A DNA stretch of 64,000 bases. It comes from Aquilaria yunnanensis. Lineage: Eukaryota; Streptophyta; Magnoliopsida; Malvales; Thymelaeaceae. The position numbers were made by a program, and so were the translations under genes. The DNA is taken from NCBI GenBank assembly GCA_039654915.1, contig CM077594.1:100268893-100332892 (forward strand), written 5' to 3'. The first letter of the stretch is position 1; each line of letters opens with the position of its first letter. Positions 1,638 through 31,000 of the stretch are shown here, one piece after another. The notes under the pieces were generated by a model that ran no database searches, was not told the origin of the DNA, and saw only the letters and a program-made list of their open reading frames with translations.

Positions 1638-1642
1638 TCGGG
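1638..1642. repeat. Target-site duplication, left copy (TCGGG)
   Basis: TCGGG lies directly before the LTR start at 1643. The same five bases follow the other LTR at 19866-19870. A 5-bp duplication is normal for Ty3/gypsy integrases. Confidence 0.93.
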
Positions 1643-4600
1643 TGTGGCAACGTCGGGTTTTCGGGAGTCGCCACCAATCGGTTTTCGCTCAGGTCGATTG
1701 GATACCTTAAAATATGGTCTGCGAGAGTTCGGGGATCGGGAGTACGGTTACGCTAAAACAATATTGTTATAGCGCCCAAAATTGGCACCTTAGTTGATTT
1801 TAATTTTGTTTTACTTTGCTTTAAAAAAAATTCAGTTAATTTTCAAACTAGAAATTTTAACTGAATTAGTCGAAATGTGGATTTTTTAAGTTAAGTTGAT
1901 ATTTCCGAACCATGGACTCTGCCGAGTCATTTGGACACGGAAGTTTTTAATTCCGAACCATGGACTCTGCCGAGTCACCCGGACACGGAATGTTGATGAT
2001 ATTTTAAATAATTTAATCCATATCGTAAAATATGAATTTTTATCTTTTGTATTTATTTAATTTATTTAATTAAAAAATTTTGATATTTTTCAAACCGTAG
2101 ATCTTGACGGATCATCCGGATATGAAAATTATTTTAAAAAGGTGAGCCAAAAAATAATTATTTAATCAAAATTTCATTTATTTAATAATGAAACCAAAAA
2201 TTTATGTATATTTCAAAAATAAAAGAAAATTTTTAATATTTTATTTGTTTTATTTTGTTTTAATGAAAGATTAACCAAAAGTAATTATTTAATTAAGAAA
2301 CCAAAAATTTATATGCATATTTTAAAAATAAATAAAAGTTTTTGATATTTATATATTTTATTTTTTTGTGTTCTTTTTTATTGATAAAATAAGTCTAAAA
2401 TATTTAAAAAAAAATTAATTCTTTTTTCTTGTTTATTTTTATTACCTTTATTTGAAATTATTTGGGTAAAATTTTATTTTGTTTAATAAAGGAAACAAAA
2501 AGTTATATCTTTTTATTATTTTGAAAGAAATAAGTAAAATATTACTGGATAAAAAAAATAAGTAAAATATTATCCCAAAGTTTTTCAATCAAAAAGTAAA
2601 ATATTACTGAATAAAAATAAATAAGTAAAATATTATCCCAAAGTTTTTCAATCAAAAAGTAAAATACTACTGAATAAAAATAAATAAGTAAAATATTATC
2701 CCAAAGCTTTTCAATCAAAAAGTAAAATATTACTGAATAAAAATAAATAAGTAAAATATTATCCCAAAGTTTTTCAATCAAAAAGTAAAATATTACTGAA
2801 TAAAAATAAATAAGTAAAATATTATCCCAAAGTTTTTCAATCAAAAAGTAAAATATTACTAAATAAAATCCTGAAGTTTTTATATCCTTTTATTCTTTTT
2901 ACTAATAAAGAAACTAAAAAGTTATACTTAATAAATAAGTAATATATTGCTGGATAAAGAGATAAGTAAAATATTAGCCCAAAGTTTTTATTTTTTAATA
3001 AAAGAAAATTTATTTATATACTTTATGTAAAAAAATATATATATATATTTTATATACTTTATTTAAAAAAATATTTTCCAAGCCATGGATCCTGGCAGAT
3101 CATTTGGACATGGAGTTTAATTTTTATTAATTATTTATTTAATTAATTATTAATTAAATCATAATTTTTATTGGATTTTTATTATTGTTTTTCTTGAATT
3201 TTTAATTATTATTACTATAGAAATATATTTAAAAAACAGAATTGATTTTTTTTGTATTTTTAGAATTATTTAATTATGTTTGTTAAATAATTTTTAATAA
3301 AAAGAATAAAAAGTTTAACTTTTTGTTCTCTTTAAAGAAATAATTAAAACATATGTTTCAAAATAATAAAAGATAATTGTCTTTAAAAAATGATTTTTAA
3401 ATAGAATAAAGTTAATTATTCACATAAAAGAATCTTCTTTTAATTAGTTACTGTTTACTTATTTATTTATTTTTTATTATTAAATAAGTGAAATAAATTT
3501 TATCATAAAATAAAATTTTGGCATAAAGGAAAATTAAATAAAGTAAGGTAAAGGGGAGGTTTTATTTTAGTTTAGACATAAAAAAAATGCATAAAATAAC
3601 ACATGTAAACATATAAAGGAATATTAAAAGATAATAAATAAATAAATAAAGTGGGGCTTTTTGACCATCCACTTAAAAAAAAATAAATAAATAGGAGGTA
3701 TAACCTTCCATGAATTATAAAAGTTAGCAAAAGTTAGAAAAGTTAGATGTTAATAATGATAATAACAATAATAAAAGGTTAGTAAATTAGTAACAATAAT
3801 AATAATAAAAGGTTAGTAAAGTTAGTAAAGTTAGTTGTTAATAACAATAAAAACAAAAGTTAGTAATGTTAGTTGAGTTAATTATCAATAATAACAACAA
3901 TAATAATAAAAATTAGTAAGTTAATAATGATAATAACAATAACAATAAAAGTTAGTTATGTTAGCAATTAATAATAATAATAATAATAATAATAACAATA
4001 AAAGTTAGTATGGTTAGTAAGTTAGTGAGTTAATAATAGTAACAACAATAATAATAGAGGTTAGTGATAATAACAACAATAAATAATAGATAAACAAATA
4101 AATATTAAAAGAGTTAGTAATTAGTTTTTCTTTCTGCAAGGATAAAAGAAAAGGTTAGTGACCAAAGTGAAAGAAATTGAAAAGATGAATGATTATGTGG
4201 GAGTTTTACCTTTTGAAATTAAAACTTGAATTCTGAGAACAGGAAAACAGGGACGCGCGCGCGCACGAGGGGGAAAGGGGGCGGAGCTGGGCGACGGCAC
4301 GCCAGGCGAGGGACGGCGAGGCAACGGCGGGCCAGGAATGGGGCGACGAGGCGACGGCGGGCCAGGCGAGGGACGGCGGTGTGACGGCGGGCCAGGCGAG
4401 GGGCGGCGGCCGGCGAACTAGGAGAGAGAGACGCGGCGGAGGGAGAGACGGGACACGACGGGAAGAGAAGCGGACGGCGGCGGGACGGCGTGGGAGCTAC
4501 CGGCGGCGGCGGGCGTGGCTGGGCCGGACGACGGCGGCAGAGGAGAGAAAAACGGTGAACGGAGAGAGAGAGAGAAAACGGAAGAAAAGAAAAAAACAAA

Positions 4601-5250
4601 CGAAGAAGATGGTCGAATAGTAAGAAAAAAAAGTTTTGGGACTTTCTGGGCAGAGAAAGGATAAGCTAGGGAATAAGGCTGTAATTTTATCTTTTTTTTG
4701 AAACGGAGCTCTAAGTTTTCTTTCTATTTTTTTCTGTGTTCAGCACAAAATTTGGGGGGCTATTTATAGAGGAAGTTTGGCTGAACTGTTGATGGATAAA
4801 TTAATAAAAAATTTCAAACTTATCTTTTAAATTGGTAAAATGACAATTTTAGTCCTTTACGTCTCTCAGCCTCTGGATAAGTTCCTGAAGCTTCTGATTT
4901 TGACAATTTTGTCGTTTTCTGTCAATTTGCGCCAGAAACGTCGGCAGGCCCAAAATTTTATGTGACAAACTACCAAATGCTCCTGGAACTTTCAGAATTT
5001 GTCAATTTTTCCCGAAACTTCTTAATGTTGTCATTTTTACCTCAAACTTTTAAATTTTGCCATTTTTTTTGAGTTTTCTTTTTTTCTTTCAAATACACAC
5101 ATATATCATTTTAAATCAAATCTTCACAAAAAAAAATGTATTTTAAACTAATTAAAATTTTTAGTAATAATAATAATAATAAAAATAATAATTTTTTTTA
5201 TTTAATTTCTTTTAAAATTTTTTATGGTCGGACGAAATTGGGTGTCAACA
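1643..5250 (-). repeat. 3' LTR of the retrotransposon (3608 bp)
   Basis: On the element strand it begins TGTTGACACCC and ends GTTGCCACA. It contains, on the + strand, about five 63-bp tandem units (2535-2850), microsatellite-like AATAAT/GTTAGTAA stretches (3700-4130), a GC-rich block (4245-4565) and a TATA box (4760-4768). The ORFs read here (2542-2844, 4219-4599, 4381-4620) are products of tandem repeats or GC-rich low complexity and occur identically in the other LTR, so I do not call them genes. Confidence 0.93.
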
Positions 5251-5263
5251 GCTGCCCCCCTTT
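5251..5263 (-). other. Polypurine tract
   Basis: The element strand reads AAAGGGGGGCAGC directly before the LTR start TGTTGACACC. This purine run at the inner edge of the 3' LTR is the expected primer for plus-strand DNA synthesis. It confirms the minus-strand orientation. Confidence 0.85.
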
Positions 5264-5349
5264 GCATGCTTCATGAGACATGATGTATGCAAAGTCGTTA
5301 CCAAATTTCGTCCGGCTTAGCTAGGCATTGAAAACCTTTTCGCCGCCTA

Positions 5350-6310
5350 AATCCTGAGGTTAAGGAACTCTCCTTAGAACCCCGGCGATAGGAGCTCTCC
5401 TATCGTTGAAGGAAAATTGATTGTTTCTGAGGCAAAGGTTCCATCCTTAAAACCTCGGATTGATTGATTGATTTCGAAGCAAAGGTTCCATCATTAAAAC
5501 CTCGAATTGATTGATTGATTTCGAGGCAAAAGTTCCATCCTTAAAACCTTGAATTGATTGATTGATCTCGAGGCAAAGATTTCATCCTTAAAACCTCAGA
5601 TTGATTGATTGATTTCGAGGCAAAGGTTCCATCCTTAAAACCTCAGATTGATTGGTTGATTTCGAGGCAAAGGTTCCATCCTTAAAACCTCGGATTGATT
5701 GATTGATGTCGAGGTAAAGGTTCCATCCTTAAAGCCTCGAATTGATTGATTGATGTCGAGACAAAGGTTCCATCCTTAAAACCTCGGATTGATTGATTGA
5801 TTTCGAGGTAAAGGTTCCATCCTTAAAACCTCGAATTGATTGATTGTTTTCGAGGCAAAGGTTCCATCCTTAAAACCTCGGATTGATAATTGATCTCGAG
5901 GCAAAGGTTCCATCCTTAAAACCCCGGATTGATTGATTGATCTCGAGGCAAAGGTTCCATCCTTAAAACCCCGATGATGAAAATTGGTTGTTTTCGAGGC
6001 AAAGGTTCCATCCTTAAAACCTCGGATTGATAATTGATCTCGAGGCAAAGGTTCCATCCTTAAAACCCCGGATTGATTGATTGATGTCGAGGCAAAGATT
6101 TCATCCTTAAAACCTCGACGATTGATTGAGTTCGAGGCAAAGGTTCCATCCTTAAAACCTCGGATTGATAATTGATTGTTTTCGAGGCAAAGGTTCCATC
6201 CTTAAAACCTCGATGATGAAAATTGATTGTTTTCGAGGCAAAGGTTCCATCCTTAAAACCCCGATGATGAAAATTGATTTTGAGGCTAAGGAGCTCTCCT
6301 TAGGACCTCG
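5350..6310. repeat. 46-bp minisatellite beside the 3' LTR (roughly 18 units)
   Basis: Units contain GAGGCAAAGGTTCCATCC, CTTAAAACCTCG and GATTGATTGATT, spaced about 46 bp. The edge units are variant forms with GGAGCTCTCCTTAG. The minus-strand frames at 5776-6057 and 6152-6475 are repeat translations (MEPLPRDQLSIRGFKDG-type) and are not called as genes. Tandem arrays in this position are common in Tat/Ogre elements. Confidence 0.9.
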
Positions 6311-6823
6311 AGCGAAATTTATATGAAAGCAATTGAAATTGGAATAATTTTCTTCGAAAGTGTGAATTTTCATAATAGGCGAGCGCAAAGAATTAGGCTT
6401 CGATAAAACGAGTGAATCTTGATGATGACAATAACACTGACAAATTATGTAAAGGGAACGGATGTTTGGAATCAATATCCAAGGTTCATCTAATATTTTC
6501 TTCAGTAAATATAGATTCCCTTGTGAGATATGTCATCCAAATAAGGTCAAAGCTTAACTACCCCAAAATGTTATGCCTAGTAGACCTAATAGGATGCGTC
6601 TCAAGAGTAATAAAAATTACTCTTTACTCAGCCATTCCAACCTAAAGGCATTGTCGCATGGTTTTAATATCAGCATGGACGAAACTATCTTATAAAAAGA
6701 AATTCCCTGAAAAGAAAAACTGAAACGCGAAAGAAAATGCTGATAATAAAACTAAAGGACAAGAAAAACGGATCAGATCGCTTTTTTCTTCCACAATACT
6801 TCAACAGGGTGAGTAGAGGACCA
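6311..6823. other. Non-coding spacer 3' of the LOG gene
   Basis: No gene or repeat is recognised. It would hold the 3' UTR of the LOG ORF. The frame at 6412-6645 has no recognisable content. Confidence 0.5.
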
Positions 6824-7453
6824 TTATGGGAGTGAACTGGTCGGGAAAGACTGTCGTGTCCAGTCTATCTGAATCATTGCTGGATCTGGTTCAGGAACAA
6901 AAGCTTGTATTTTATCTAGCAATTCTTCAGCAGTTGTTGCGGATATTATGATTCGCCGTGCCACTCTTGATATGAAATTCTTCTGCATAGCATAATCCAT
7001 AAAAGCTATCAGACCTGTAAAGAAATTGTTAACATTCAAAAGCCCAATGGGTTTCTTATGCAAATTAAGTTGGGCCATGGAAGCAATTTGAAAGACTTCT
7101 CCCAATGTGCCAAAACCACCTGGTAGAGCGATAAAAGCATCAGCATTTAAAAGCATTTGTAACACACGCTCTTGCAAATTTTTAACCACTAATTCTTCTC
7201 CAATCGTGCCCCCAGAAACAAATTTCAAAGGTCCAGGGATGATGCCCAAAACTTGACTTCCTCCTAAAGATGCTGCTGATGCTACACCTCCCATTAGTCC
7301 GACACTACCTCCTCCATAAACTAAATGTATTTTTCGCTCAGCTAATACTCTACCCAAATGGTTGGCTGCCTTTAAATACTCTTCATCTTTTCCAGGAAAA
7401 GCCCCAGAAAATACACAAATACTTCGGGGTTTACGAGTGGAGGTTTTCTCCAT
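6824..7453 (-). CDS. LOG-type cytokinin riboside 5'-monophosphate phosphoribohydrolase, intronless, retrotransposon-borne
   Basis: This 209-residue ORF is the usual size of plant LONELY GUY proteins. LOG enzymes release active cytokinin bases from their riboside monophosphates in one step, in the cytosol or nucleus. Seen: N-terminal Rossmann strand SICVFSGAFPGK (11-22), LVYGGGSVGLMG (44-55), QVLGIIPGPL (67-76), a QER segment with Arg96, and the family motif PGGFGTLGE (111-119), which fits PGGxGTxxE. GLLNVNNFF follows, then a C-terminal VPEPDPAMIQIDW. The catalytic Arg and motif Glu are kept. The Lys usual after the ER pair is Val here, and the sequence belongs to a divergent LOG branch. Plant LOG genes normally have several introns; this copy has none, which suggests capture from spliced RNA. 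It has its own TATA box and an upstream repeat array and reads in element sense. Catalytic activity is inferred. Confidence 0.92.
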   Translation of the reverse strand: MEKTSTRKPRSICVFSGAFPGKDEEYLKAANHLGRVLAERKIHLVYGGGSVGLMGGVASAASLGGSQVLGIIPGPLKFVSGGTIGEELVVKNLQERVLQMLLNADAFIALPGGFGTLGEVFQIASMAQLNLHKKPIGLLNVNNFFTGLIAFMDYAMQKNFISRVARRIIISATTAEELLDKIQAFVPEPDPAMIQIDWTRQSFPTSSLP

Positions 7454-7494
7454 TCCTATCCTTACCCATGTGAAAAAAGAAGAAAAGAGGATAT

Positions 7495-7504
7495 ATTTAT
7501 AGAG
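7495..7504 (-). promoter_or_regulatory. TATA-box module of the LOG gene
   Basis: The minus strand reads CTTTTCATCTCTATAAATAT. TATAAAT ends about 42 bp before the LOG ATG. Nearly the same string (TTTCATCACTATAAAT) precedes two of the three zinc-finger genes, so the promoters appear homologous. Confidence 0.65.
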
Positions 7505-7535
7505 ATGAAAAGATAAAGTAATAATTTTATTCTCA

Positions 7536-7920
7536 AGAGTGGATACATTATTGCCAGCTATACACAGTAGTCACGACTATGGCTCAGGTCGGGAGTGGGT
7601 ACATTATCGTCAAAAGAGGAGGAAAATTTCAAAAGCAACTAAAATATACAGTAGTCGCGATTGTAGCTTATGTCAGGAGTAGGTACGTGATTGTCGGAAG
7701 TGAAGGAAAATTTCAAAAGTGGCAGCTATATACAGTAGTCCGTGTCAGGAGTGGGTACATTATTGCCAAAGGAGGAGGAAAATTTCAAAAGCGACAGCTA
7801 GCATGTACAGTATCGTGACTATGGCTCATGTCAGGAGTGGATACATTATTACCAAAAGGGGAGGAAAATTTCAAAAGCGACAGCTAGCACGTACAGTAAT
7901 CGTGACTTTGATCCTCGTCT
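7536..7920. repeat. Upstream repeat array of LOG (about 5 units of 70-88 bp)
   Basis: Units start near 7536 (partial), 7588, 7672, 7743 and 7830. Each carries GTCAGGAGTGGGTACATTAT, GGAGGAAAATTTCAAAAG, a CAGCTA block, GTACAGTA and a CGTGACTATGGCTC segment. Single diverged copies of the same block precede the zinc-finger genes (about 8575-8670 and 9410-9510). It is therefore the shared upstream region, amplified only in front of LOG. The frames at 7579-7818 and 7719-7946 are repeat translations. Confidence 0.85.
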
Positions 7921-7932
7921 TCCACTGGCTTT

Positions 7933-8481
7933 CTATGAATCGGTGATTTGCATCTCATTTAGCTTTCTCACAAACTGGCAAACAGGGTCGTTTAGGGTTA
8001 GATTCCCAAGACTGTAACGATCTCGTTCTTTTTGGAAAATTATCCATAATCCAACCACCTCAAATTGCACTATTCCGCAAGAATGCGCTTCAAGAACCTC
8101 TCGAATATCTTCTAGAGATTCCTTACGCAAGCCATTCTTAATGAATCTTATTCTATCATTACGATTTCTGGTGATCACTCCTGGAGAACGACAGTTATTG
8201 CCGCAAATCCACCATCTACAATTATGACAAACGCCTAGCCTTTTTGCTCTTCTTTTTTTGGCATAAGCGCTTTTACCAAAGCCGGGCATACGGGGAAAGA
8301 ACGCTTCTGGAACTTCACCAGCTGAATGAACCTTAGCTTCAATTAGCGACCGCACATTATCAGGAATGCCTTTGTGCATAAATACTCTGAATCGTTCACA
8401 TCTAGCTTGATAAATCTTTTTAAGAACATTTATTGGGAAGGAAGGAAAATACTTTCGTAGGGCGGAAAGAGAAGACTCCAT
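7933..8481 (-). CDS. Cysteine-rich zinc-finger protein, copy 1 (carlavirus CRP-like)
   Basis: ORF of 182 codons from the ATG at 8481. The frame is open slightly further upstream, but no earlier ATG exists and the paralogues begin at the same Met. Order: N-terminal SLSALRKYFPSFPINVLKKI, an IEAKVHSAGEVPEAF segment, basic GKSAYAKKRRAKR, then a Cys4 finger of spacing C-x2-C-x4-C-x3-C (CHNCRWWICGNNC) and an FIKNGLRKESLEDI tail ending near VCQFVRKL. The basic block followed at once by four cysteines resembles the nucleic-acid-binding cysteine-rich proteins of carlaviruses and relatives, though the viral finger has wider spacing and the C-terminal 85 residues here are extra. This copy is the most diverged (CRWW where the others have CGRW). 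The family assignment is by eye; the function is inferred as RNA or DNA binding. Confidence 0.75.
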   Translation of the reverse strand: MESSLSALRKYFPSFPINVLKKIYQARCERFRVFMHKGIPDNVRSLIEAKVHSAGEVPEAFFPRMPGFGKSAYAKKRRAKRLGVCHNCRWWICGNNCRSPGVITRNRNDRIRFIKNGLRKESLEDIREVLEAHSCGIVQFEVVGLWIIFQKERDRYSLGNLTLNDPVCQFVRKLNEMQITDS

Positions 8482-8540
8482 TGATGAAGGAAGCAAAGAA
8501 AGAAATTAGTGATTGTAGGAAACGAAAATAACTAACAAAT

Positions 8541-8550
8541 ATTTATAGTG
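8541..8550 (-). promoter_or_regulatory. TATA-box module of zinc-finger copy 1
   Basis: The minus strand reads CCTTTCATCACTATAAATAT, about 60 bp before the ATG at 8481. It matches the LOG module. A single copy of the upstream repeat block follows at about 8575-8670. Confidence 0.6.
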
Positions 8551-8697
8551 ATGAAAGGGATAATGCGTTAATTACACTTACAGAAGCAAGTACATTATTG
8601 TCAAAAGAAAAGACAAATGACAGCTTATATGTACAGGAATCATGACCGTGGCTCTCATCTTCCACTGATTTATGTCCAGTAATGGCTTCAATGCCTT

Positions 8698-9246
8698 CTA
8701 TAAGTCGGGGATTTGCTTCCCATCCAGTTTCCTTACAAACTGACAAACAGGGTCGTTTAAAATCACATTCCCAAGACTGTAACGGTTTCGTTCTTTATGG
8801 TAAGTCCTCCATAAACTGATAATTTCACCTTGCACTTTTCCACAAGAATGCGTTTCAAGAGTCTCTCGGATATCTTCCAGAGATTCCTTACGCAGGCCAT
8901 TCTTAATGAATTTTCTTTTATCTTCACGATTTATGGAGATGTATCCTAAAGAGCGACATTTAGTAATACAATTCCATCGCCCACATTTATAACACACGCC
9001 TAGTCTCTTTGCTCTTCGCCTTTTGGCATAACGGCTTTTACCTAAACCGGGCATGCGGGGCATAAATGCATCTGGAACTTCACCCGCCAAACGGACCTTA
9101 GCTTCAATTATCCACTGCACATTATCGGGAATGCCTTTGCGTGTAAAAACTCTGATTCTTTCACATCTAGCCAGGTAGATCTTTTTAAGGACTTTTATTG
9201 GAAGGGAAGGAAAGTATTTTCGCAGTGCAGAAAGAGTAGAATCCAT
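8698..9246 (-). CDS. Cysteine-rich zinc-finger protein, copy 2 (carlavirus CRP-like)
   Basis: 182 residues, intact, ATG at 9246. It shares the whole architecture of its neighbours: LSALRKYFPSLPIKVLKKIY at the N-terminus, GKSRYAKRRRAKR (69-81), finger C85-x2-C88-x4-C93-x3-C97, then REDKRKFIKNGLRKESLEDI and a C-terminal LNDPVCQFVRKLDGKQI. The basic stretch could also serve for nuclear import. Two further cysteines (135 in ETHSCG, 158 in PVCQF) occur in all three copies. No signal peptide or membrane segment is seen. Substitutions relative to copies 1 and 3 are spread along the gene without frame damage, so the copies may have been under selection. Function is unknown; nucleic-acid binding is inferred. 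Confidence 0.77.
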   Translation of the reverse strand: MDSTLSALRKYFPSLPIKVLKKIYLARCERIRVFTRKGIPDNVQWIIEAKVRLAGEVPDAFMPRMPGLGKSRYAKRRRAKRLGVCYKCGRWNCITKCRSLGYISINREDKRKFIKNGLRKESLEDIRETLETHSCGKVQGEIISLWRTYHKERNRYSLGNVILNDPVCQFVRKLDGKQIPDL

Positions 9247-9366
9247 TGATGAGAGAAGAATTTGAGAGAAGAGGGAAATGAATCAGTTATTGTAGGAGAC
9301 TGGAATAACCGAATTTAGAAATCACGGGGTATCTTATCCGCTGCTTAATCAGAAGGAAGAACACGC

Positions 9367-9376
9367 ATTTATAGTG
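9367..9376 (-). promoter_or_regulatory. TATA-box module of zinc-finger copy 2
   Basis: The minus strand reads CCTTTTCATCACTATAAAT, about 120 bp before the ATG at 9246. It is homologous to the modules at 8541 and 7495. One copy of the upstream repeat block lies behind it at about 9410-9510. Confidence 0.6.
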
Positions 9377-9535
9377 ATGAAAAGGGATAACGTGTCGATT
9401 ACACTTAGGGGAGCGTGTACATCTGTCAAAAGAAAATGCAAACTTTTCCAAATATAACAAACTGTATGTACAGTAATTGTGACTGTGGCTCACATCTTCC
9501 ACTGGTTTTTCGTCCAGTAACGGCATTAACGGCTT

Positions 9536-10084
9536 CTATGAGTCGAGGATTTGCTTCCCATCCAGTTTTCTTACAAGCTGGCAAACAGGGTCATTTACAG
9601 TCAGATTCCCGGGACTGTAACGGTTTCGTTCTTCATGAAAAATGCTCCACAAACCAAGTAGTTCACGTTGCACAGATCCACAAGAATGCGTCTCAAGAGT
9701 CAATTGGATATCATCCAACGAGTCTTTACTCAGGCCATTCTTAATGAATCGTATTTTATCTTCTCGATTATCAGAGATCATCCCTAAAGAACGACATTTA
9801 GTATTACAAGTCCACCGTCCACATTTATGGCAGACTTGTAACCTTTTCGCTCTTCGCTTTTTGGCATAAGAGCTTTTGCCTATACCAGGCATGTGAGACA
9901 CAAATGCCTCTGGGATTTCACCTGCCAGACGAACCTTGGCTTCGATTAACCACCGCACATCTTCAGGGATTCCTTTGTGCATCAGAACTCTTAATCGTTC
10001 ATAGCGAACTTGGTAGATCTTTTTGAGGATGTTCATTGGGAGAGAAGGGAAATACTTTCGCAAGGCGGAAAAAGTAGGATCCAT
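9536..10084 (-). CDS. Cysteine-rich zinc-finger protein, copy 3 (carlavirus CRP-like)
   Basis: 182 residues, intact, ATG at 10084. It has the same domains as copies 1 and 2: FSALRKYFPSLPMNILKKIY, GKSSYAKKRRAKR, finger CHKCGRWTCNTKC, then REDKIRFIKNGLSKDSLDDI and VCQLVRKLDGKQI. It is the first of the cargo genes in element orientation. Its upstream region aligns with that of copy 2 up to the TATA site, where it reads differently (CATTTTGATAGAT on the + strand instead of CATTTATAGTGATG), so its own promoter may be lost. The ARCER motif near residue 28 is VRYER here. Confidence 0.77.
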   Translation of the reverse strand: MDPTFSALRKYFPSLPMNILKKIYQVRYERLRVLMHKGIPEDVRWLIEAKVRLAGEIPEAFVSHMPGIGKSSYAKKRRAKRLQVCHKCGRWTCNTKCRSLGMISDNREDKIRFIKNGLSKDSLDDIQLTLETHSCGSVQRELLGLWSIFHEERNRYSPGNLTVNDPVCQLVRKLDGKQILDS

Positions 10085-10239
10085 TTTCTAGGAGGAAGTA
10101 AAAGAAAGAAGGGGTGAAGGAATCAGTTATTATGGGCAACTGAGAGAACCGACTTGAGAGTCACGGAGTACCGTATCCGCCGTTTAACCGGAAAAGTAGA
10201 TCATACTTCATTTTGATAGATATTTTTTTTTATCCGTTG

Positions 10240-10590
10240 ATCCAGTCCTCGATTATTGAATCCATTGTCCGCTTTTGACAAAGTTTCAACGACAATATTT
10301 CTTGATGTCTGCCTTATCTTTGACCACAGCTATCTCTTATCTTGGATGCTGCTAAGCTGGCATCAATCCTGTCCTTCCAGGTGTAGCCTCGATTATTGAA
10401 TCAATTGCCAAGCTTTTGACAATATTGTCTACTTTATCCTTTTTGATATCTGCCTTATCCTTGGCTATAGCTATCTCTTATTTTGGATACTACTAGCTGA
10501 TGTCAATCCTGTCCTTCCAGGTGTAGTCTCGATTATTGAATCAATTGCCAGGCTTTTGACATATTGTCTACCTTATCCTTGAATTCCTGA
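10240..10590. repeat. 140-bp tandem repeat (about 2.5 units)
   Basis: CTCGATTATTGAATC recurs at 10248, 10388 and 10528. The intervening CTATCTCTTAT and CAATCCTGTCCTTCCAGGTG blocks are conserved. It is non-coding and lies upstream of zinc-finger copy 3 in element orientation. Confidence 0.8.
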
Positions 10591-13146
10591 TGCGGGTTGG
10601 TCCCGCATATTAGCTGTGTATCCAGTGATAGATTGGTAAGAGCTGATATTATTGAGATCTCAGCTTATACTGCTGTAACGGTGCGGTGGATGTGTTTCCC
10701 ATTTGATTCCTATCGTGTAAAAATCATGCATGCATGATGTGAAATGCATGAATGCAAAGCATGTGTAATTGATGGTTTTTTTTTTATTTTTATTTATATT
10801 TATTTTTTTATTTTTTATTTTTTTTGGATTGATCTAGTTCTTCATATCTTTGCTTTACTGGATCCTCTTTATAATTGCCTTCTTGGACTATCATTGAATC
10901 TCTTTATGCTTTCCAGCTTTTGTTCACTGCCTCAAAAGCCCAACTCTTTTCAAAATCCCCTTTCTTTGACTTGTTCTTGAATTTTGGCCTCAATTTCTTT
11001 AAAGTTGGCCCGCCTCATAATTTATATCTCTTTCGGGTACTCATCCATTGTCATGGATTTGATACCATCAAAGGCTTTACTTTCAATGTCTGCTTTGCCC
11101 CTTTTCTTGTGACCGTGCCGACACTTACTTATTCCCATGTTATAATCTGAATGATTGCTCTTCCTTGAACTCATGTTTTGATCCATAAGACTTGCCCCCT
11201 TGTCTATTGAGCTTCTTTGTTGGCGGTACTCCTCTTACGCTTCGTAGAGACTACTTTGCCCCCCTGAATATGGTGTTTATGTGAAAAGAGATATCATCTC
11301 GCCTTTGATTTAACAGAAGGTTGAGGATTTCTAGACCTTTGTGATGGCACTTGATCGTAAATTTCTCTTACAAGAACCATATCTTATTAAAGAAAGACTC
11401 AAGCTATCTCCTTACTTTTAAGTCTACATACATTAATGAATAATGGTTTGGCTTTAAAGAAAAACTTTCATCAATTTTCAAAGCTTGACAAAGTAATTTA
11501 CGGTCTTTGTTTTCAATTAAAATGTCCTGTCATTCTTCCCTTTCCAACTCGAAGACATAAACTGTGCAAGGCAATAAGGTAGAAACATGATTCACAATAA
11601 TAGCCTTTTAACTGAATGAGGATGATATCAAGAGGTAAATGTTAGGTGTGAGGAAAGTTAAGTTTGAATGTTTTTTTTTTTTTTGTGGCAGTCTTTTAGC
11701 TGAATGAGAATGATATTAAGAGGTAAATATTAGGTCTGAATAAAGTTAAGTTTGAGTGGTGTGAAAGAAGGGTCTTTTAATACTACTCGTGAGCAAATTT
11801 GATTATGGTGAAAAACTCAATAGTGATGACCTCAAACTTGCCACTCTTTCCAGAAAGTTAGACCTCATCTGTTGCCCCCCAACTATTGTGATCTTTATGC
11901 ATGCTTGGTTTGAGGGTTACTTTTGTTTTCTAAACCGCCTTTACAGGTTTTCAGTCTAGAATCCATAGCTCACTTTTTCTATCTTTTTTCTTTTGCTCTA
12001 GTTTGAGCCCTTTTTTTCCTTTCTTTTTTTTTGTTTTTGTTTTTGTTTCCCTTTCTTTTTTTTTTTTGTTTTGTTTTTTTTTGTTTTTTTTGTTTTTATA
12101 TATATATTTTTTTGTTCCTTTTTTTTTGTGTGTGAGCTATGGTGATGACATATTTGATAACTTTCTTGAAGTGAGATGACTCAAGTGGCCTTGCTTGCTC
12201 GTGCTTGTTCTCAGTTCTTTTTGGTTTTGAATTTTCCCTTGTTGGCTTTTTGATGGAAGGGATGAACTTTTTCCTTTTCGGAGTTTTTGTTACAGAGAAC
12301 CGAGATCATAGCCTTCTTGAAATGAGATGATTCAAGTGGCCTTACTTGCTTGTATTTGCTCTCAGTCTCTTTTTTTTTTTTTTTGTTTTGAATTTTCCCT
12401 TGTTGGCTTTTTGATGGAAGGGATGAACTTTTTCCTTTTTTTTTTTTGGAGTTTGTGTTATGGAAAACTGAGAATCTTTTTTTTTTTTTTGTATTGAGCA
12501 TTTGTGAGAATTGGGAGGCCACTGAAGTCATTTAATATGAGAGCTACCTTGTTTGGAAACTAACCCCAAACTTCTTGCAAGGATGTTGATAACCACTATG
12601 AATTCTTTTTTTTTAGAGTTGGGGTGCAACATATGAAATCCTTCTTACTAGATTTGACAGCACTTTCAAGATTGTCACTATTAAATCTCACTTAACTTTT
12701 TATTTTCACCCACGAGTAGTATCGTTTTCAAAGTAAAGTGTGATAGCAATAATGGATAGTATAATGGAAAGGAGTGAGAGATGGATATAAAAACGGAATT
12801 TTTGGTAAGAAGTGGTAGAATGTGTAGGTGTAATAATTGAATTTTTGGTAAAAATTGGTAGAATGTGTAGAAGTAATAATGGGATTAAAAAGTGGTAGAA
12901 TGCACACGCAACATCTTTTTGTTGTACCAGAAAAAGAATAGCAGGTGTCCATTTAACAAAGACTACACCCTAGATTCTGGACTAAATCTAGGAGATTTTT
13001 ACTATTAAATTACTTTTGCAAGCTTTCAAAGATACAAGTTTATTCAAAGGATTCCCTGTCATTCGAAAATGTATGCGGACTGTTAGGTCAGATCTGACTT
13101 GGAGCCCTTCTAAAATCAATGTAATTCCAGCTCAAAATCTTCACTT
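10591..13146. other. Non-coding interior of the retrotransposon where pol would be expected
   Basis: No protease, RT, RNase H or integrase motif is readable on either strand. What is present: long T-runs (A-runs in element sense) at 11670-11690 and 11990-12125, a roughly 88-bp duplication (11603-11765), a roughly 149-bp duplication (12161-12460, carrying TTTTGAATTTTCCCTTGTTG twice), and a GGGGGGCAAC purine run near 11874 resembling the polypurine tract. The frames at 10744-11150 and 12211-12531 are low complexity. Confidence 0.6.
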
Positions 13147-13304
13147 TCAATTACCAATCACATCGGGCCTAGCAGCTTGACCTCGGTTTTGTTTGATTTG
13201 TAGAGGAATGGCCTTGGGACTTGATGGCTTAAGAGTAGGTTTTGAGATTGGTATAGCATTGACTTCTTGTTCTTTAATGATCACATTCACATCATCATAA
13301 AAAT
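13147..13304 (-). pseudogene. Out-of-frame continuation of gag
   Basis: Just before the gag stop the neighbouring frame reads YDDVNVIIKEQEVNAIPISK and continues for about 45 codons to a stop at 13147-13149. This resembles the end of Tat/Ogre gag before the protease. It suggests a one-base slip near 13300, after which the rest of gag-pol was lost. A programmed frameshift is possible but nothing shows it. Confidence 0.6.
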
Positions 13305-15038
13305 GATAAGTTGGGATGAGTCTATGAGTCTTTGCAGATTCTTACGGAATTCTGAGCATTCTTGGATAGAATGACTCTTACTGTCATGAAAGTTGCACCA
13401 TTCCTCATCTTCAACTTCTTCATGTCCAAAAGAAGGCTTTCCCATGATAATCCCTTCTTTCACAAGGCATGAATATACATGCTTAAGAGGGGTTATGATA
13501 TCATTGACTGACTTTTTCATCAGCCGGTGTTCTTCTATCATATTGACTGGTTTTTCTTGATGAGGCGGCAATGGATTGTGAGTGACGTTCGGTTCATCGG
13601 AAAAGTCCAACCACTTTGATTCGATTAATTGTTGGACTATACGTTTCAATGCTGTGCAATTTTCCAAGCCATGGCCTGGAACGCCATCATGATATGGGCA
13701 AGTTATGTTGGGGTCATACCACGTTGGATATGGGGGTCCAAATGGATTTGTAGGAATTGGACGGATAAGTTGACTTTCTATGAGTTTTGGATACAACTCA
13801 GTGTAAGTCATGGGAATTGGTGCAAAAACTTCTTTTGGTTTTTGTGTGGGTACTGGAGGAGTCGGAACAAGTGGCCGTAACTGATTAGGCCTGTTGAGAG
13901 GATAATTGTTGGGCCTATTGGGAGGATAATCATTAGGCCTATTGGAAGGATAATCATTGGGCATATTGGGAGGATAGTCATTGGGCCTATTGGTAGGATA
14001 ATAATTGGGCCTTTTGGCAGAATAGGATAGGCGAGGACCGGTAGCCACAGTACCTACGAGGGGAATCCCTCTTTCGCGTCCTATTTGTTGTACTTCTTCA
14101 TCTTTTGTTCTGGATGGTCCTCCTCTTTTCATAGGATCACTAAAGGACTCAGCAATCTTCCCAGTCCTAATCCCATGCTCGATCCTTTCTCCAGACATGA
14201 CAACATCGGAGAAATTAGTTGCCGAATTGCCAATGAGTTTGTCATAATATGGGTATTTCAGTGTCTGGACAAACAAAGTGACCATTTCTTTTTCTGTCAT
14301 GGGTGGCTGAACTTGTGCAGCTAAGTCCCTCCATCGTTGGGCATATTCCTTGAAAGTTTCTGGCTTTTTCTTCTCCATGTTTTGGAGAGTTTGGCGATCC
14401 GGAGCCAAGTCCATAACATGTTTATAGTTGCCGATGAAGGCCTGAGCAAGGTCATTCCAAGTTTTGATGTTTCTTGGTCCTTGACTTAGATACCACTGCA
14501 ATGCTGATTTTGTGAGACTTTCCTGAAAAAGTGCAATCCACACCTTTTCATCTTTTGTGAGTGGTTGTAGTCTCCTTAGGAACAGTGTGATGTGAGTGAT
14601 GGGATCACTCGTTCCATCGTATTTTACGAAATCCGGTACTTTAAAGTCCGAAGGGATTATGACGTCTGGCACTAAGCAGAGGTCATCCACTGAGAGAGAT
14701 CCGAATATATTACCTCCTTCAATGGCTCGCAGTCTCTTCTCTATTGTTTCGAGCTTTTGAGATTCTGCTTCTTCTTTTGGTAATATATTCTTCTCTTCAT
14801 GTACAGTATCTTGTTTCAGGTGAACACTAGCAGACGGTCCTGATTCTTGCAACAGGTTTTCTTGGACTGAGACTCGTTGCGGGGTGAATCCCGGGGGATA
14901 AGTGGGATCTTGTACTTCTTTGATGGGGACTTGAGTTGCTTTCCCTTTGATTAATTCCATCAATTGTCTCATCTGTTCTGACATACTTTCAATCTTGGAC
15001 TCCATCTCCATGAGACGTCCTTCGGCTTGTTCTGCCAT
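13287..15038 (-). CDS. gag: Gag polyprotein of Tat/Ogre-type Ty3/gypsy retrotransposon
   Basis: 583 residues. It would assemble the virus-like particle in which the element RNA is copied. Order: coiled-coil-like N-terminus (MAEQAEGRLMEMESKIESMS), a PPGFTPQ linker, LCLVPDVIIPSDFKVPDFVK leading into the capsid domain, WYLSQGPRNIKTWNDLAQAF, APDRQTLQNM and KEYAQRWRDLAAQVQPP. These are hallmarks of the Tat/Ogre lineage. A nine-residue repeat of the type PNDYPPNRP runs about five times (DNA near 13887-14015). Two noncanonical zinc knuckles follow, CPYHDGVPGHGLENC and CNFHDSKSHSIQEC. The frame stops at 13287, but gag-like reading continues in another frame to 13147. It is the only retroelement gene in the element. 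Confidence 0.9.
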   Translation of the reverse strand: MAEQAEGRLMEMESKIESMSEQMRQLMELIKGKATQVPIKEVQDPTYPPGFTPQRVSVQENLLQESGPSASVHLKQDTVHEEKNILPKEEAESQKLETIEKRLRAIEGGNIFGSLSVDDLCLVPDVIIPSDFKVPDFVKYDGTSDPITHITLFLRRLQPLTKDEKVWIALFQESLTKSALQWYLSQGPRNIKTWNDLAQAFIGNYKHVMDLAPDRQTLQNMEKKKPETFKEYAQRWRDLAAQVQPPMTEKEMVTLFVQTLKYPYYDKLIGNSATNFSDVVMSGERIEHGIRTGKIAESFSDPMKRGGPSRTKDEEVQQIGRERGIPLVGTVATGPRLSYSAKRPNYYPTNRPNDYPPNMPNDYPSNRPNDYPPNRPNNYPLNRPNQLRPLVPTPPVPTQKPKEVFAPIPMTYTELYPKLIESQLIRPIPTNPFGPPYPTWYDPNITCPYHDGVPGHGLENCTALKRIVQQLIESKWLDFSDEPNVTHNPLPPHQEKPVNMIEEHRLMKKSVNDIITPLKHVYSCLVKEGIIMGKPSFGHEEVEDEEWCNFHDSKSHSIQECSEFRKNLQRLIDSSQLIIFMMM

Positions 15039-16235
15039 TAATCTTGTTTGGAGTCGAGTTGAATATCGGTGTTAAGGTCCAATTTTACCTTTTTAAAGGA
15101 ATATTTATTTTATTAGATTCTATGCGTATATGATTGATGTGATGGATGCATGCAATGAGATTATGTTTTTATCAAAATTTATATGCACGTGATTGATGTA
15201 ATGGAATGCATGCAATGAGATTATTTTTATCAGATTTTATATGCGTGTGATTGATGTAATGGATGCATGCAATATAAAGTGAGATTATGTTTTTATCAGA
15301 CTTTATATGCACGTGATTAATGTAATGAAATGCATGCAATGAGATTATTTTTATCAGATTTTATATGCATGTGATTAATGTAATGGAATGCATGCAATGA
15401 GATTATTTTTATCAGATTTTATATGCGTGTGATTGATGTAATGGAATGCATGCAATGAGATTATTTTTATCATACTTTATATGCACGTGATTAATGTAAT
15501 GGAATGCATGCAATGAGTGAGTTTGTTTATCCATTATCGTAGAACTTCAAAACTTTTAGTTGTCATTATAAAGACCAAAAAGTTAGCATAATTTGATGCG
15601 TGGTTTTGATGCATGAAGAATAATTGCACAAGAAAGATAAGGTTATTAATAAGTTAAATAGCAATTAACAACTCATGAAGTATTATGGAAAAATGAATTA
15701 AAACCATAAATATAAGACACGAAGAAAATAAAAGTGTAGAGCAACAACATAGCATAACAAGGACGTGCTTATGGCGTTGGTAAAATGGTAGAAATTCTAT
15801 GGTCAGTTCTATGGTTAAGTGAGGAGTTCTATATGCATAAGGTAGCTTATCAAAAAGGCAAGGGATAGTTCCCGAATCCCGTCACTAAATCATAGTGACG
15901 GCCCGATTCCTTACCCTCTAGGGTTAATGTAAGGAATGGATTAATTCGAGTCGTAGCTTTTCGTGGGCCCATGCAGAGACTAACCGTCTCAGAAGGCAAT
16001 ACACTACTTTGCTACTTTGAAACCGGTGAAGGCTTGGAGACCGTGGCCTCACAAGGACAGCAACACCAATTCCGCTTAGAAAGAATCGTGTTTGATTTAA
16101 GGAAGCTCGGGTATAGAGCTTCATATTGTGAATGCATTATGCATGTTTAGAATAAGTAAATATAACATATAAATCCACATAATAAGCAAAGTAAATCAGA
16201 ACAAATCAACTTTAGGCTCGACTCACTAACGTGGA
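15039..16235 (-). other. 5' leader of the retrotransposon with tandem repeats
   Basis: Untranslated region between primer binding site and gag. At about 15115-15525 there are about seven tandem units of roughly 58 bp containing GATTGATGTAATGGAATGC, ATGCAATGAGATTATTTTT and ATCAGATTTTATATGC. Autonomous Ogre elements carry an extra ORF upstream of gag; none is present here. The short frame at 15924-16124 has no recognisable content. Confidence 0.7.
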
Positions 16236-16254
16236 GTCCCCAGTGGAGTCGCCA
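16236..16254 (-). other. Primer binding site (tRNA complement)
   Basis: The element strand reads TGGCGACTCCACTGGGGAC, three bases inside the 5' LTR. TGG at the start fits the CCA end of a tRNA. Ogre elements are described as using tRNA-Arg; I could not check the match. Confidence 0.8.
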
Positions 16255-16519
16255 AGCTGTGGCAACGTCGGGTTTTCGGGAGTCGCCACCAATCGGTTTT
16301 CGCTCAGGTCGATTGGATACCTTAAAATATGGTCTGCGAGAGTTCGGGGATCGGGAGTACGGTTACGCTAAAACAATATTGTTATAGCGCCCAAAATTGG
16401 CACCTTAGTTGATTTTAATTTTGTTTTACTTTGCTTTAAAAAAAATTCAGTTAATTTTCAAACTAGAAATTTTAACTGAATTAGTCGAAATGTGGATTTT
16501 TTAAGTTAAGTTGATATTT

Positions 16520-17730
16520 CCGAACCATGGACTCTGCCGAGTCATTTGGACACGGAAGTTTTTAATTCCGAACCATGGACTCTGCCGAGTCACCCGGACA
16601 CGGAATGTTGATGATATTTTAAATAATTTAATCCATATCGTAAAATATGAATTTTTATCTTTTGTATTTATTTAATTTATTTAATTAAAAAATTTTGATA
16701 TTTTTCAAACCGTAGATCTTGACGGATCATCCGGATATGAAAATTATTTTAAAAAGGTGAGCCAAAAAATAATTATTTAATCAAAATTTCATTTATTTAA
16801 TAATGAAACCAAAAATTTATGTATATTTCAAAAATAAAAGAAAATTTTTAATATTTTATTTGTTTTATTTTGTTTTAATGAAAGATTAACCAAAAGTAAT
16901 TATTTAATTAAGAAACCAAAAATTTATATGCATATTTTAAAAATAAATAAAAGTTTTTGATATTTATATATTTTATTTTTTTGTGTTCTTTTTTATTGAT
17001 AAAATAAGTCTAAAATATTTAAAAAAAAATTAATTCTTTTTTCTTGTTTATTTTTATTACCTTTATTTGAAATTATTTGGGTAAAATTTTATTTTGTTTA
17101 ATAAAGGAAACAAAAAGTTATATCTTTTTATTATTTTGAAAGAAATAAGTAAAATATTACTGGATAAAAAAAATAAGTAAAATATTATCCCAAAGTTTTT
17201 CAATCAAAAAGTAAAATATTACTGAATAAAAATAAATAAGTAAAATATTATCCCAAAGTTTTTCAATCAAAAAGTAAAATACTACTGAATAAAAATAAAT
17301 AAGTAAAATATTATCCCAAAGCTTTTCAATCAAAAAGTAAAATATTACTGAATAAAAATAAATAAGTAAAATATTATCCCAAAGTTTTTCAATCAAAAAG
17401 TAAAATATTACTGAATAAAAATAAATAAGTAAAATATTATCCCAAAGTTTTTCAATCAAAAAGTAAAATATTACTAAATAAAATCCTGAAGTTTTTATAT
17501 CCTTTTATTCTTTTTACTAATAAAGAAACTAAAAAGTTATACTTAATAAATAAGTAATATATTGCTGGATAAAGAGATAAGTAAAATATTAGCCCAAAGT
17601 TTTTATTTTTTAATAAAAGAAAATTTATTTATATACTTTATGTAAAAAAATATATATATATATTTTATATACTTTATTTAAAAAAATATTTTCCAAGCCA
17701 TGGATCCTGGCAGATCATTTGGACATGGAG
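16520..17730 (-). repeat. Dispersed LTR motif with a conserved short hairpin, four copies
   Basis: Copies are at 16520-16556, 16568-16604, 16706-16741 and 17694-17730. Equivalents in the 3' LTR are at 1905-1941, 1953-1989, 2091-2126 and 3079-3115. The first two contain GACTCTGCCGAGTC, a 5-bp stem with a 4-base loop. The diverged copies have GATC on both sides of the loop, so pairing is kept while the bases differ. All lie in the transcribed part of the LTR. The role is unknown. Confidence 0.6.
17150..17465. repeat. 63-bp tandem repeat within the LTR (about 5 units)
   Basis: The unit contains AAGTAAAATATTATCCCAAA and TTTTTCAATCAAAAAG and is repeated about five times with few changes. The copy in the other LTR is at 2535-2850. 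A 21-residue repeat read in translation is only the shadow of this DNA repeat. Confidence 0.88.
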
Positions 17731-18859
17731 TTTAATTTTTATTAATTATTTATTTAATTAATTATTAATTAAATCATAATTTTTATTGGATTTTTATTAT
17801 TGTTTTTCTTGAATTTTTAATTATTATTACTATAGAAATATATTTAAAAAACAGAATTGATTTTTTTTGTATTTTTAGAATTATTTAATTATGTTTGTTA
17901 AATAATTTTTAATAAAAAGAATAAAAAGTTTAACTTTTTGTTCTCTTTAAAGAAATAATTAAAACATATGTTTCAAAATAATAAAAGATAATTGTCTTTA
18001 AAAAATGATTTTTAAATAGAATAAAGTTAATTATTCACATAAAAGAATCTTCTTTTAATTAGTTACTGTTTACTTATTTATTTATTTTTTATTATTAAAT
18101 AAGTGAAATAAATTTTATCATAAAATAAAATTTTGGCATAAAGGAAAATTAAATAAAGTAAGGTAAAGGGGAGGTTTTATTTTAGTTTAGACATAAAAAA
18201 AATGCATAAAATAACACATGTAAACATATAAAGGAATATTAAAAGATAATAAATAAATAAATAAAGTGGGGCTTTTTGACCATCCACTTAAAAAAAAATA
18301 AATAAATAGGAGGTATAACCTTCCATGAATTATAAAAGTTAGCAAAAGTTAGAAAAGTTAGATGTTAATAATGATAATAACAATAATAAAAGGTTAGTAA
18401 ATTAGTAACAATAATAATAATAAAAGGTTAGTAAAGTTAGTAAAGTTAGTTGTTAATAACAATAAAAACAAAAGTTAGTAATGTTAGTTGAGTTAATTAT
18501 CAATAATAACAACAATAATAATAAAAATTAGTAAGTTAATAATGATAATAACAATAACAATAAAAGTTAGTTATGTTAGCAATTAATAATAATAATAATA
18601 ATAATAATAACAATAAAAGTTAGTATGGTTAGTAAGTTAGTGAGTTAATAATAGTAACAACAATAATAATAGAGGTTAGTGATAATAACAACAATAAATA
18701 ATAGATAAACAAATAAATATTAAAAGAGTTAGTAATTAGTTTTTCTTTCTGCAAGGATAAAAGAAAAGGTTAGTGACCAAAGTGAAAGAAATTGAAAAGA
18801 TGAATGATTATGTGGGAGTTTTACCTTTTGAAATTAAAACTTGAATTCTGAGAACAGGA

Positions 18860-19180
18860 AAACAGGGACGCGCGCGCGCACGAGGGGGAAAGGGGGCGGA
18901 GCTGGGCGACGGCACGCCAGGCGAGGGACGGCGAGGCAACGGCGGGCCAGGAATGGGGCGACGAGGCGACGGCGGGCCAGGCGAGGGACGGCGGTGTGAC
19001 GGCGGGCCAGGCGAGGGGCGGCGGCCGGCGAACTAGGAGAGAGAGACGCGGCGGAGGGAGAGACGGGACACGACGGGAAGAGAAGCGGACGGCGGCGGGA
19101 CGGCGTGGGAGCTACCGGCGGCGGCGGGCGTGGCTGGGCCGGACGACGGCGGCAGAGGAGAGAAAAACGGTGAACGGAGA
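18860..19180. other. GC-rich low-complexity block inside the LTR
   Basis: A strongly G-rich stretch (GGCGACGGCGGGCCAGG-type repeats, CGCGCGCGC run) sits in otherwise very AT-rich LTR DNA. It lies about 200-500 bp downstream of the LTR TATA box in element orientation, so it would be in the long leader RNA. The same block is at 4245-4565. The 126-residue Pro/Arg/Ser-rich frame across it is low complexity and I do not call it coding. Confidence 0.6.
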
Positions 19181-19374
19181 GAGAGAGAGAAAACGGAAGA
19201 AAAGAAAAAAACAAACGAAGAAGATGGTCGAATAGTAAGAAAAAAAAGTTTTGGGACTTTCTGGGCAGAGAAAGGATAAGCTAGGGAATAAGGCTGTAAT
19301 TTTATCTTTTTTTTGAAACGGAGCTCTAAGTTTTCTTTCTATTTTTTTCTGTGTTCAGCACAAAATTTGGGGGG

Positions 19375-19383
19375 CTATTTATA
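19375..19383 (-). promoter_or_regulatory. LTR TATA box
   Basis: The minus strand reads TATAAATAG inside CTCTATAAATAGCCCC, a strong plant TATA box about 490 bp into the LTR. The same site is at 4760-4768 in the 3' LTR. In the 5' LTR it is positioned to drive the genomic transcript through gag. Confidence 0.7.
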
Positions 19384-19865
19384 GAGGAAGTTTGGCTGAA
19401 CTGTTGATGGATAAATTAATAAAAAATTTCAAACTTATCTTTTAAATTGGTAAAATGACAATTTTAGTCCTTTACGTCTCTCAGCCTCTGGATAAGTTCC
19501 TGAAGCTTCTGATTTTGACAATTTTGTCGTTTTCTGTCAATTTGCGCCAGAAACGTCGGCAGGCCCAAAATTTTATGTGACAAACTACCAAATGCTCCTG
19601 GAACTTTCAGAATTTGTCAATTTTTCCCGAAACTTCTTAATGTTGTCATTTTTACCTCAAACTTTTAAATTTTGCCATTTTTTTTGAGTTTTCTTTTTTT
19701 CTTTCAAATACACACATATATCATTTTAAATCAAATCTTCACAAAAAAAAATGTATTTTAAACTAATTAAAATTTTTAGTAATAATAATAATAATAAAAA
19801 TAATAATTTTTTTTATTTAATTTCTTTTAAAATTTTTTATGGTCGGACGAAATTGGGTGTCAACA

Positions 19866-19870
19866 TCGGG
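19866..19870. repeat. Target-site duplication, right copy (TCGGG)
   Basis: Identical to 1638-1642. Confidence 0.93.
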
Positions 19871-29200: not shown

Positions 29201-29581
29201 TGTCGCTTACAAGTAGCGACTACTCGCCCTCGCTACTTGTGTTAATATCACCCCAGCAGGCTAATTATAAAATAGTAATAAATTAGTAATAAATGATCAA
29301 GCCTCATGTGATAATAAATTAATGGTCTATTAATTTAATTTTTATTAAATAGATTATTTACTAATTACTAAAAAAATGTTTAGAGATTTGTATGCTACAT
29401 TAATTAAATTAAAAATTATAATTATACAATTAAATAAGTGACATATAAAATGATAACTGGTTTTATTGAATTAGATTTAACATAAACAATAAGTAAAATA
29501 AAATGTGAAAAATTGGAAGTCACATTATAAAGATTAAGTAATTGAAAAGTGACAAATTAGCAACAATAATGACTAACACAT

Positions 29582-30717: not shown

Positions 30718-31000
30718 TCGCTAACTTTAGCGACGTGTAACCGTCTTGCCGTCGCTAAGTTTAGCGACATGTAACCGTCACTAAGTTAGCGACGGCAAGA
30801 CGTCGCTAAGTTTAGCGACGTGTAACCGTCACTAGTTAGCGACGGCTTACCGTCGCTAAGTTTAGCGACGTGTAACCGTCACTAATTAGCCGTCGCTAAA
30901 ATTTAGCGACTAACAGCCGTCGCTAAATTCTCACCGGAATATTACCGACTATTAACCGTCGCTAATTAAACCGTCGCTAAATTCGATTTTTCTTGTAGTG

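Follow-up and report, generated by a model that had tools for sequence, protein, structure and literature searches.

A high-copy Gypsy-type retrotransposon family of Aquilaria yunnanensis with a recurrent cassette of three zinc-finger genes and a LOG-type gene

Results

A young element with four additional genes

The stretch of DNA analysed here (64,000 nucleotides of Aquilaria yunnanensis contig CM077594.1, hereafter the window) contains a whole long terminal repeat (LTR) retrotransposon with a gag gene and, behind it, four additional open reading frames (ORFs), three of which encode related zinc-finger proteins (F1, F2 and F3) and one a LOG-type phosphoribohydrolase (LOG; Table 1). In the sense direction the order is 5' LTR, leader, gag, spacer, F1, F2, F3, LOG, an array of 47-bp repeats and 3' LTR, and all four additional frames are open and lie on the minus strand, like gag. 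The element has the paired LTRs, TG...CA ends and target-site duplication of an LTR retrotransposon; read on the minus strand it starts with TGTTGACACC and ends with TTGCCACA. An earlier note on this DNA had described four intact ORFs on the gag strand of a bounded, young element, with which they had moved, and both points were borne out: the LTRs are identical over 3608 bases, the TCGGG duplication is present, and the LOG and finger profiles score above their cut-offs. Zero differences over 3608 bases date the insertion to at most about 32,000-59,000 years ago if substitution rates of 1.3e-8 and 7e-9 per site per year are assumed.

Between gag and F1 we found no recognisable coding sequence, and the four minus-strand ORFs in this spacer gave no Pfam match at E 0.01. 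The reverse transcriptase, RNase H and integrase pieces of a pol-bearing relative had no match within the element, which lacks a pol of its own and is therefore unable to move unaided. Rfam returned no family in the whole window at gathering thresholds, and none at E 0.1 in 6800-10300. The presumed primer binding site, GCTTGGCGACTCCACTGGGGAC, resembles what we take to be the 3' end of tRNA-Arg. A primer binding site for Arg-tRNA is given for Ogre elements (excerpt of PMC9289625).

The LOG ORF scored 106.3 bits against Pfam Lysine_decarbox (PF03641; cut-off 27) and 178 bits against Arabidopsis At2g37210 (entry 2a33), and in the alignment both the PGGxGTxxE motif and the conserved R are present. 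Both carlavirus-type Pfam profiles matched all three finger ORFs, Viral_NABP with 23.3-31.6 bits (cut-off 23) and Carla_C4 with 24.0-28.7 bits (cut-off 20.9), two of the six scores being only about 3.5 bits or less over the cut-off; in a wider finger set, 15 of 15 members matched both profiles at E 0.01. A finger of the spacing C-X2-C-X4-C-X3-C occurs in 103 of 120 homologues and a basic stretch directly ahead of it in 95 of 120, and both features are found in F1-F3 and in the finger ORF of contig L001 (see below). Compared with each other, F1-F3 show a ratio of nonsynonymous to synonymous substitution (dN/dS) of 0.12-0.32 at a synonymous divergence (dS) of 0.5-1.5, which marks them as old tandem duplicates with frames kept open; amino acid identity is 71% in the pairs that include F2. 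Viral contigs were also searched, and no relatives of the fingers, gag or LOG were found there. A candidate conserved hairpin past the finger stop codons (9450-9535; 2348-2435 in L001) was rejected, its covariation consisting of one double change in three sequences, which 162 of 500 shuffles matched.

The cassette recurs in the genome

The cassette is present many hundreds of times in the 842-Mb assembly that contains the window. A 26-base LOG tag, with at most one mismatch, occurred 2,557 times (1274 + 1283) and an F1 tag 1,432 times (705 + 727), against 0 occurrences of either pattern when reversed. Exact tag places were listed for the initial 24 Mb of contig C1 (100 LOG, 62 F1). Here 44 of the 62 F1 tags had a same-strand LOG tag no more than 6 kb further downstream, at a median of 2,789 bases, while the control arrangements (F1 downstream of LOG; opposite strands) were both at 0. 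The search for the LOG domain yielded 3310 first-look candidates, the best 150 of which were scored, and 20 stretches of 10 kb round LOG copies were picked across these 150. Each of the 20 stretches has at least one finger ORF upstream of LOG and on its strand, and wherever several cassette ORFs occur their order is F1, F2, F3, LOG; one stretch (L022) has additional F2-like genes and another (L017) has F3 alone by protein match. All six F1-centred stretches contained F1-F2-F3-LOG in order, with LOG open in four, and the 150 best F1 matches listed for the genome were all open, at 98-100% identity. The recurrence that the earlier note had considered is found for both LOG and the fingers, and a one-off capture was rejected on the genome tag counts, the pairing of F1 with LOG and the sampled contexts.

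The cassette ORFs are under selective constraint within the family. Over the 20 sampled copies and the window, with broken copies counted and stops skipped, dN/dS was 0.30 for LOG, 0.20 for F1, 0.42 for F2 and 0.30 for F3, and 0.27 for the common part of gag. The middle part of gag (about residues 37/44 to 240) is missing from nine of the 20 copies, by two deletion types, and no gag match was obtained in seven of the 20 (stretches L010-L029); the cassette is kept in both groups. In six copies without a gag match dN/dS was 0.33 (LOG), 0.18 (F1), 0.44 (F2) and 0.26 (F3), and in the nine copies with the deletion 0.49, 0.22, 0.37 and 0.28, respectively, with 0.30 for gag. Since this gene set recurs so often and bears signs of selection, we regard it as a retained cargo rather than a single stray capture.

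The cassette lies behind pol in relatives

Pol pieces were found in one of the 20 sampled stretches (L014), where RVT_1 (reverse transcriptase, 76 bits), RNase H, RVT_3 and the integrase zinc-binding domain H2C2 are followed on the same strand by F1, an F2-like ORF and LOG. The L014 copy itself is broken, with early stops in F1 and LOG; it includes the C-part of gag, and a further stretch (L031) has the leader and more of gag upstream. A finger ORF also follows pol in L001, a 3330-bp contig (DAIEQH010000041.1) filed under a Nomurabacteria metagenome-assembled genome, and evidently plant retrotransposon DNA contaminating this public bacterial entry. Its order is integrase (60 bits), 204 bases and an intact finger ORF, which gave a dN/dS of 0.13-0.20 against F1, and the similarity to the window extends past the finger ORF on both sides. 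In L014 and L001 these genes lie on the strand of pol and downstream of it, the arrangement of sense additional ORFs (aORFs); the window copy has no pol. From this arrangement we regard the cassette as a group of sense aORFs sited between pol and the 3' LTR. Judged by sequence features (gag, primer binding site and integrase letters) the window family is presumably of the Tat/Ogre lineage, and we take L001 to be Athila-like. L001 had suggested that another lineage acquired the cargo from an Athila-like element; this was dropped as the main account when, in L014, the cassette turned out to lie behind a pol belonging to its own family.

We also found a TATA-type box, TTTCATCWCTATAAAT, whose exact sequence occurs three times in the window, once each ahead of F2, F3 and LOG; none of 100 shuffles reached three boxes, even with up to two mismatches. 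F1 has no box of this kind. Of the 20 LOG-centred stretches, 18 contain the box, and in nine of the 20 it stands, exact, directly before LOG.

Relatives in other plants

The search for LOG relatives scored 8000 candidates, the best 120 of which form the element-type set; 36 of these 120 belong to Reevesia pubescens, where they are spread over 17 chromosomes, and others listed come from Populus, Paulownia, Diplodiscus, Xanthoceras and Parasponia. The finger search gave at least 342 plant-type homologous proteins, for instance from Rhamnella, Xanthoceras, Populus, Orobanche and Acer, so that the named eudicot genera with relatives of LOG or of the fingers number at least nine. Indirect evidence suggests that the two are linked there as well: among rows on contigs below 100 kb (69 LOG, 111 finger), four LOG-finger pairs apparently lie on one contig (same source, exactly equal size, fit) versus 0.55 on average (largest 3) when sizes were shifted, and above 2 kb three pairs versus 0.08 (largest 2). 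A tree was built from 44 of the 120 element-type LOGs together with 30 of 120 LOG3-type LOGs and a pair of outgroup fragments; the program warned of long branches. In this tree the element-type LOGs fall on one side of a branch (96/76), apart from a group of LOG3-type LOGs and At5g11950 (99/96). In the finger tree, F1-F3 of the window form one clade with P0121, P0122 and P0238 (100/97). Genes annotated as cytokinin enzymes of the host, among them LOGL10 of Populus, belong to the element-type clade, which is a warning for annotation.

Many element-type LOGs have a C-terminal tail. A basic run with LxLxL within the final 12 residues was found in 100 of the 120 element-type LOGs listed versus none of 120 LOG3-type LOGs, a comparison set that leaves out plant LOGs of the LOG5, LOG7 and LOG8 types; in 18 of 23 element-type representatives (<75% identity) LxLxL is the exact C-terminal end. 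The tail is presumably shaped like an EAR corepressor-binding motif. It is absent from the LOG of the window and from 19 of the 20 copies read here, which end in SFP[TI]SS[LVI]P, the 20th being cut. A K after the conserved R is found in 120 of 120 LOG3-type versus 4 of 120 listed element-type LOGs, and PGGxGTxxE is retained in 111 of the latter 120.

Other features of the window

Table 1. Features of the retrotransposon and its cassette in the window
Feature	Position	Strand	Remarks
Left target-site duplication TCGGG	1638..1642	.	immediately outside LTR
Whole LTR retrotransposon, 18,223 bp	1643..19865	-	gag without pol; identical LTRs and TCGGG on both sides
3' LTR, 3608 bp	1643..5250	-	100% identity to 5' LTR
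Polypurine tract GCAAAGGGGGGCAGC	5251..5265	-	adjoins 3' LTR
47-bp repeat array, about 18 copies	5416-6260		between LOG and 3' LTR
LOG-type phosphoribohydrolase, 209 aa	6824..7453	-	single uninterrupted frame, without LxLxL tail
TATA-type box upstream of LOG	7495..7510	-	
84-86 bp repeat array, about four units	7555..7907	-	before LOG
F3, 182-aa paralogue	7933..8481	-	
TATA-type box upstream of F3	8541..8556	-	
F2, 182-aa paralogue	8698..9246	-	
TATA-type box TTTCATCACTATAAAT upstream of F2	9367..9382	-	exact match
F1 with 5' leader and 3' flank	9450..10195	-	74% identity to L001 over 776 columns
F1, 182-aa zinc-finger protein	9536..10084	-	
gag, 583 aa	13287..15038	-	PF03732 (Retrotrans_gag), 45.9 bits
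58-bp repeat array	15131-15517		in leader
Presumed primer binding site GCTTGGCGACTCCACTGGGGAC	16236..16257	-	adjoins 5' LTR
5' LTR, 3608 bp	16258..19865	-	100% identity to 3' LTR
Right target-site duplication TCGGG	19866..19870	.	immediately outside LTR

Just outside the left LTR, at 532-1002 (+), lies a gag fragment of another Gypsy element (Retrotrans_gag at E 0.0045, below the cut-off), which we take to be Athila-like. Further away are a DUF4371 domain fragment (58410-58934, minus strand, 135.7 bits), presumably hAT-transposon-like, and a zf-RVT fragment (36855-37379, minus strand, 33.6 bits), in our assumption the remnant of a LINE-type element. At 29581-30745 a 256-bp stretch recurs 909 bases further at 98% identity, with 51-bp spaced repeats in between.

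Discussion

The sequence data show the anatomy of the element, the recurrence and order of the cassette genes and the selective constraint on them. We consider it fairly probable that the element in the window is a recent, pol-less member of a high-copy family of Gypsy type with a standing 3' cassette, F1-F2-F3-LOG, that aids the element. F1, the gene next after pol, would be made from the LTR transcript, and F2, F3 and LOG would each be driven by their own TATA promoter. The finger proteins, with their basic stretch and CX2CX4CX3C finger, may bind nucleic acid in the nucleus and could aid expression or spread of the element, by analogy with what carlavirus cysteine-rich proteins reportedly do for viruses. 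LOG would free active cytokinin from its nucleotide, and this cytokinin might drive the cell to division or to a meristem-like state, in which new insertions would become heritable; the enzymes of pol-bearing relatives would mobilise the pol-less copies. Cytokinin output and an effect of the cassette on dividing cells or on silencing, as proposed in the earlier note, are hypothetical.

Several observations weigh against this account. The carlavirus spacing C-X2-C-X12-C-X4-C was found in none of 124 sequences (120 homologues, F1-F3 and L001), and the structure model of the finger is poor (predicted local distance difference test, pLDDT, 63.5). In the alignment the LOG of the window lacks the K after the conserved R that LOG3-type LOGs have, and the near-invariant residues 18, 118, 126 and 131 are altered in the LOG lineage of this genome. 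The dN/dS of LOG reaches 0.49 in the nine gag-deleted copies, and the sample behind all these ratios, 20 of the 150 best-scoring LOG copies, is biased to good copies. Among matched stretches, counted such that a frameshifted gene may appear twice, LOG is intact in 11 of 21, F1 in 13 of 19, F2 in 18 of 21 and F3 in 11 of 18.

This decay would suit a passive passenger, a cassette captured once and amplified with the element while being useless to it, its low dN/dS reflecting earlier selection in the host and the choice of good copies. Selection on the genes of pol-less copies that are moved by others would indeed be unexpected, and the copies searched were the best-scoring ones. Nevertheless, dN/dS is well below 1 in the family even with broken copies included, and similar to that of gag, F1-F3 have kept three frames open at their dS of 0.5-1.5, the pair recurs in other eudicots and the finger ORF of L001 stands behind an integrase, so that we judge a passenger unlikely. 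The neutral decay of which the earlier note had warned is seen in some copies, as with LOG, but does not describe the family, in which all 20 sampled copies have the pair and dN/dS is 0.20-0.42. A fossil of an RNA virus integrated in the element, unrelated to its life cycle, would account for the match of the fingers to both carlavirus-type profiles; we regard it as highly improbable, since no other viral gene was seen adjoining the fingers, the spacing differs in 124 of 124 sequences, the plant-type homologues number at least 342 and the L001 finger ORF occupies the same place behind integrase.

It is also conceivable, though doubtful, that the LOG of these elements is no longer chiefly a hormone enzyme, and that in most relatives the tail has turned it into a nuclear corepressor-recruiting protein, which the fingers would bring to DNA or RNA. 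The distribution of the tail and the near-absence of the K after the conserved R in the element-type set point this way, whereas the lack of LxLxL in 19 copies of this genome (the 20th being cut), the retention of PGGxGTxxE and the restriction of the tail comparison to LOG3-type LOGs point away from it. A tentative extension of the cassette that aids its element is that it forms a long-carried host-reprogramming kit, composed of virus-type nuclear finger proteins and a cytokinin-activating enzyme, in most relatives with a nuclear corepressor-binding tail, and selected even in copies without gag or pol because a cell in which a copy is expressed would become permissive to that copy (dividing, less silenced). 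Were this true, selection on non-autonomous elements could act on their effects on the cell, beyond their being copied. Since the cassette combines a recognisable enzyme, a nucleic-acid-binding protein type, many hundreds of copies and constraint without gag or pol, the idea of hormone manipulation is directly testable.

Comparison with known elements

Non-autonomous LTR retrotransposons with gag only are known (TR-GAG type), and the window element resembles these in having gag without pol; it adds four further kept ORFs. Athila-like elements with likeness to LOGL4 have reportedly been described by Steinbauerova et al. According to an excerpt of PMC9289625, which cites Steinbauerova et al., Gypsy consensus sequences of two Citrus species contain a LOG (YgdH) domain, as do those of Populus trichocarpa once a filter is turned off. 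These resemble the window in that a LOG-type ORF lies inside plant Gypsy elements, and the Populus LOGs are closely related to the LOG described here, but the same excerpt mentions no finger genes, C-terminal tail, internal promoters or comparable copy number. The earlier view that no described retrotransposon has the pair needs amending for LOG, which is in print as a Gypsy-borne gene for Citrus and Populus (PMC9289625, in excerpt), and stands for the pair: in the open-licence literature we found no report of finger genes of the present type in retrotransposons or of a finger gene together with LOG.

Published sense aORFs between pol and the 3' LTR share position and strand with the cassette of L014 and L001, but are env-like in the excerpt of PMC7264820, whereas here they encode a hormone enzyme and virus-type fingers; the same excerpt treats the persistence of additional ORFs in plant retrotransposons as an open question. 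Gypsy elements of orchids, as excerpted from PMC9289625, carry an ORF for an AlkB-type demethylase, a domain also found in Betaflexiviridae RNA viruses, and are likewise large Gypsy elements with a kept extra domain; their enzyme is a different one with activity demonstrated in vitro. The finger proteins share with carlavirus proteins the profile match and the basic stretch ahead of the finger, but have C-X2-C-X4-C-X3-C where the cysteine-rich or nucleic-acid-binding proteins of carlaviruses have C-X2-C-X12-C-X4-C (excerpt of PMC8839810). They appear, as judged from these motifs, to resemble carlavirus proteins while failing one defining feature, the cysteine spacing, and the carlavirus type proposed for them earlier is upheld by the profiles and contradicted by the spacing. 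The presence of LOG in Gypsy elements was already known; the finger genes and their pairing with LOG are, as far as the open-licence literature goes, apparently new.

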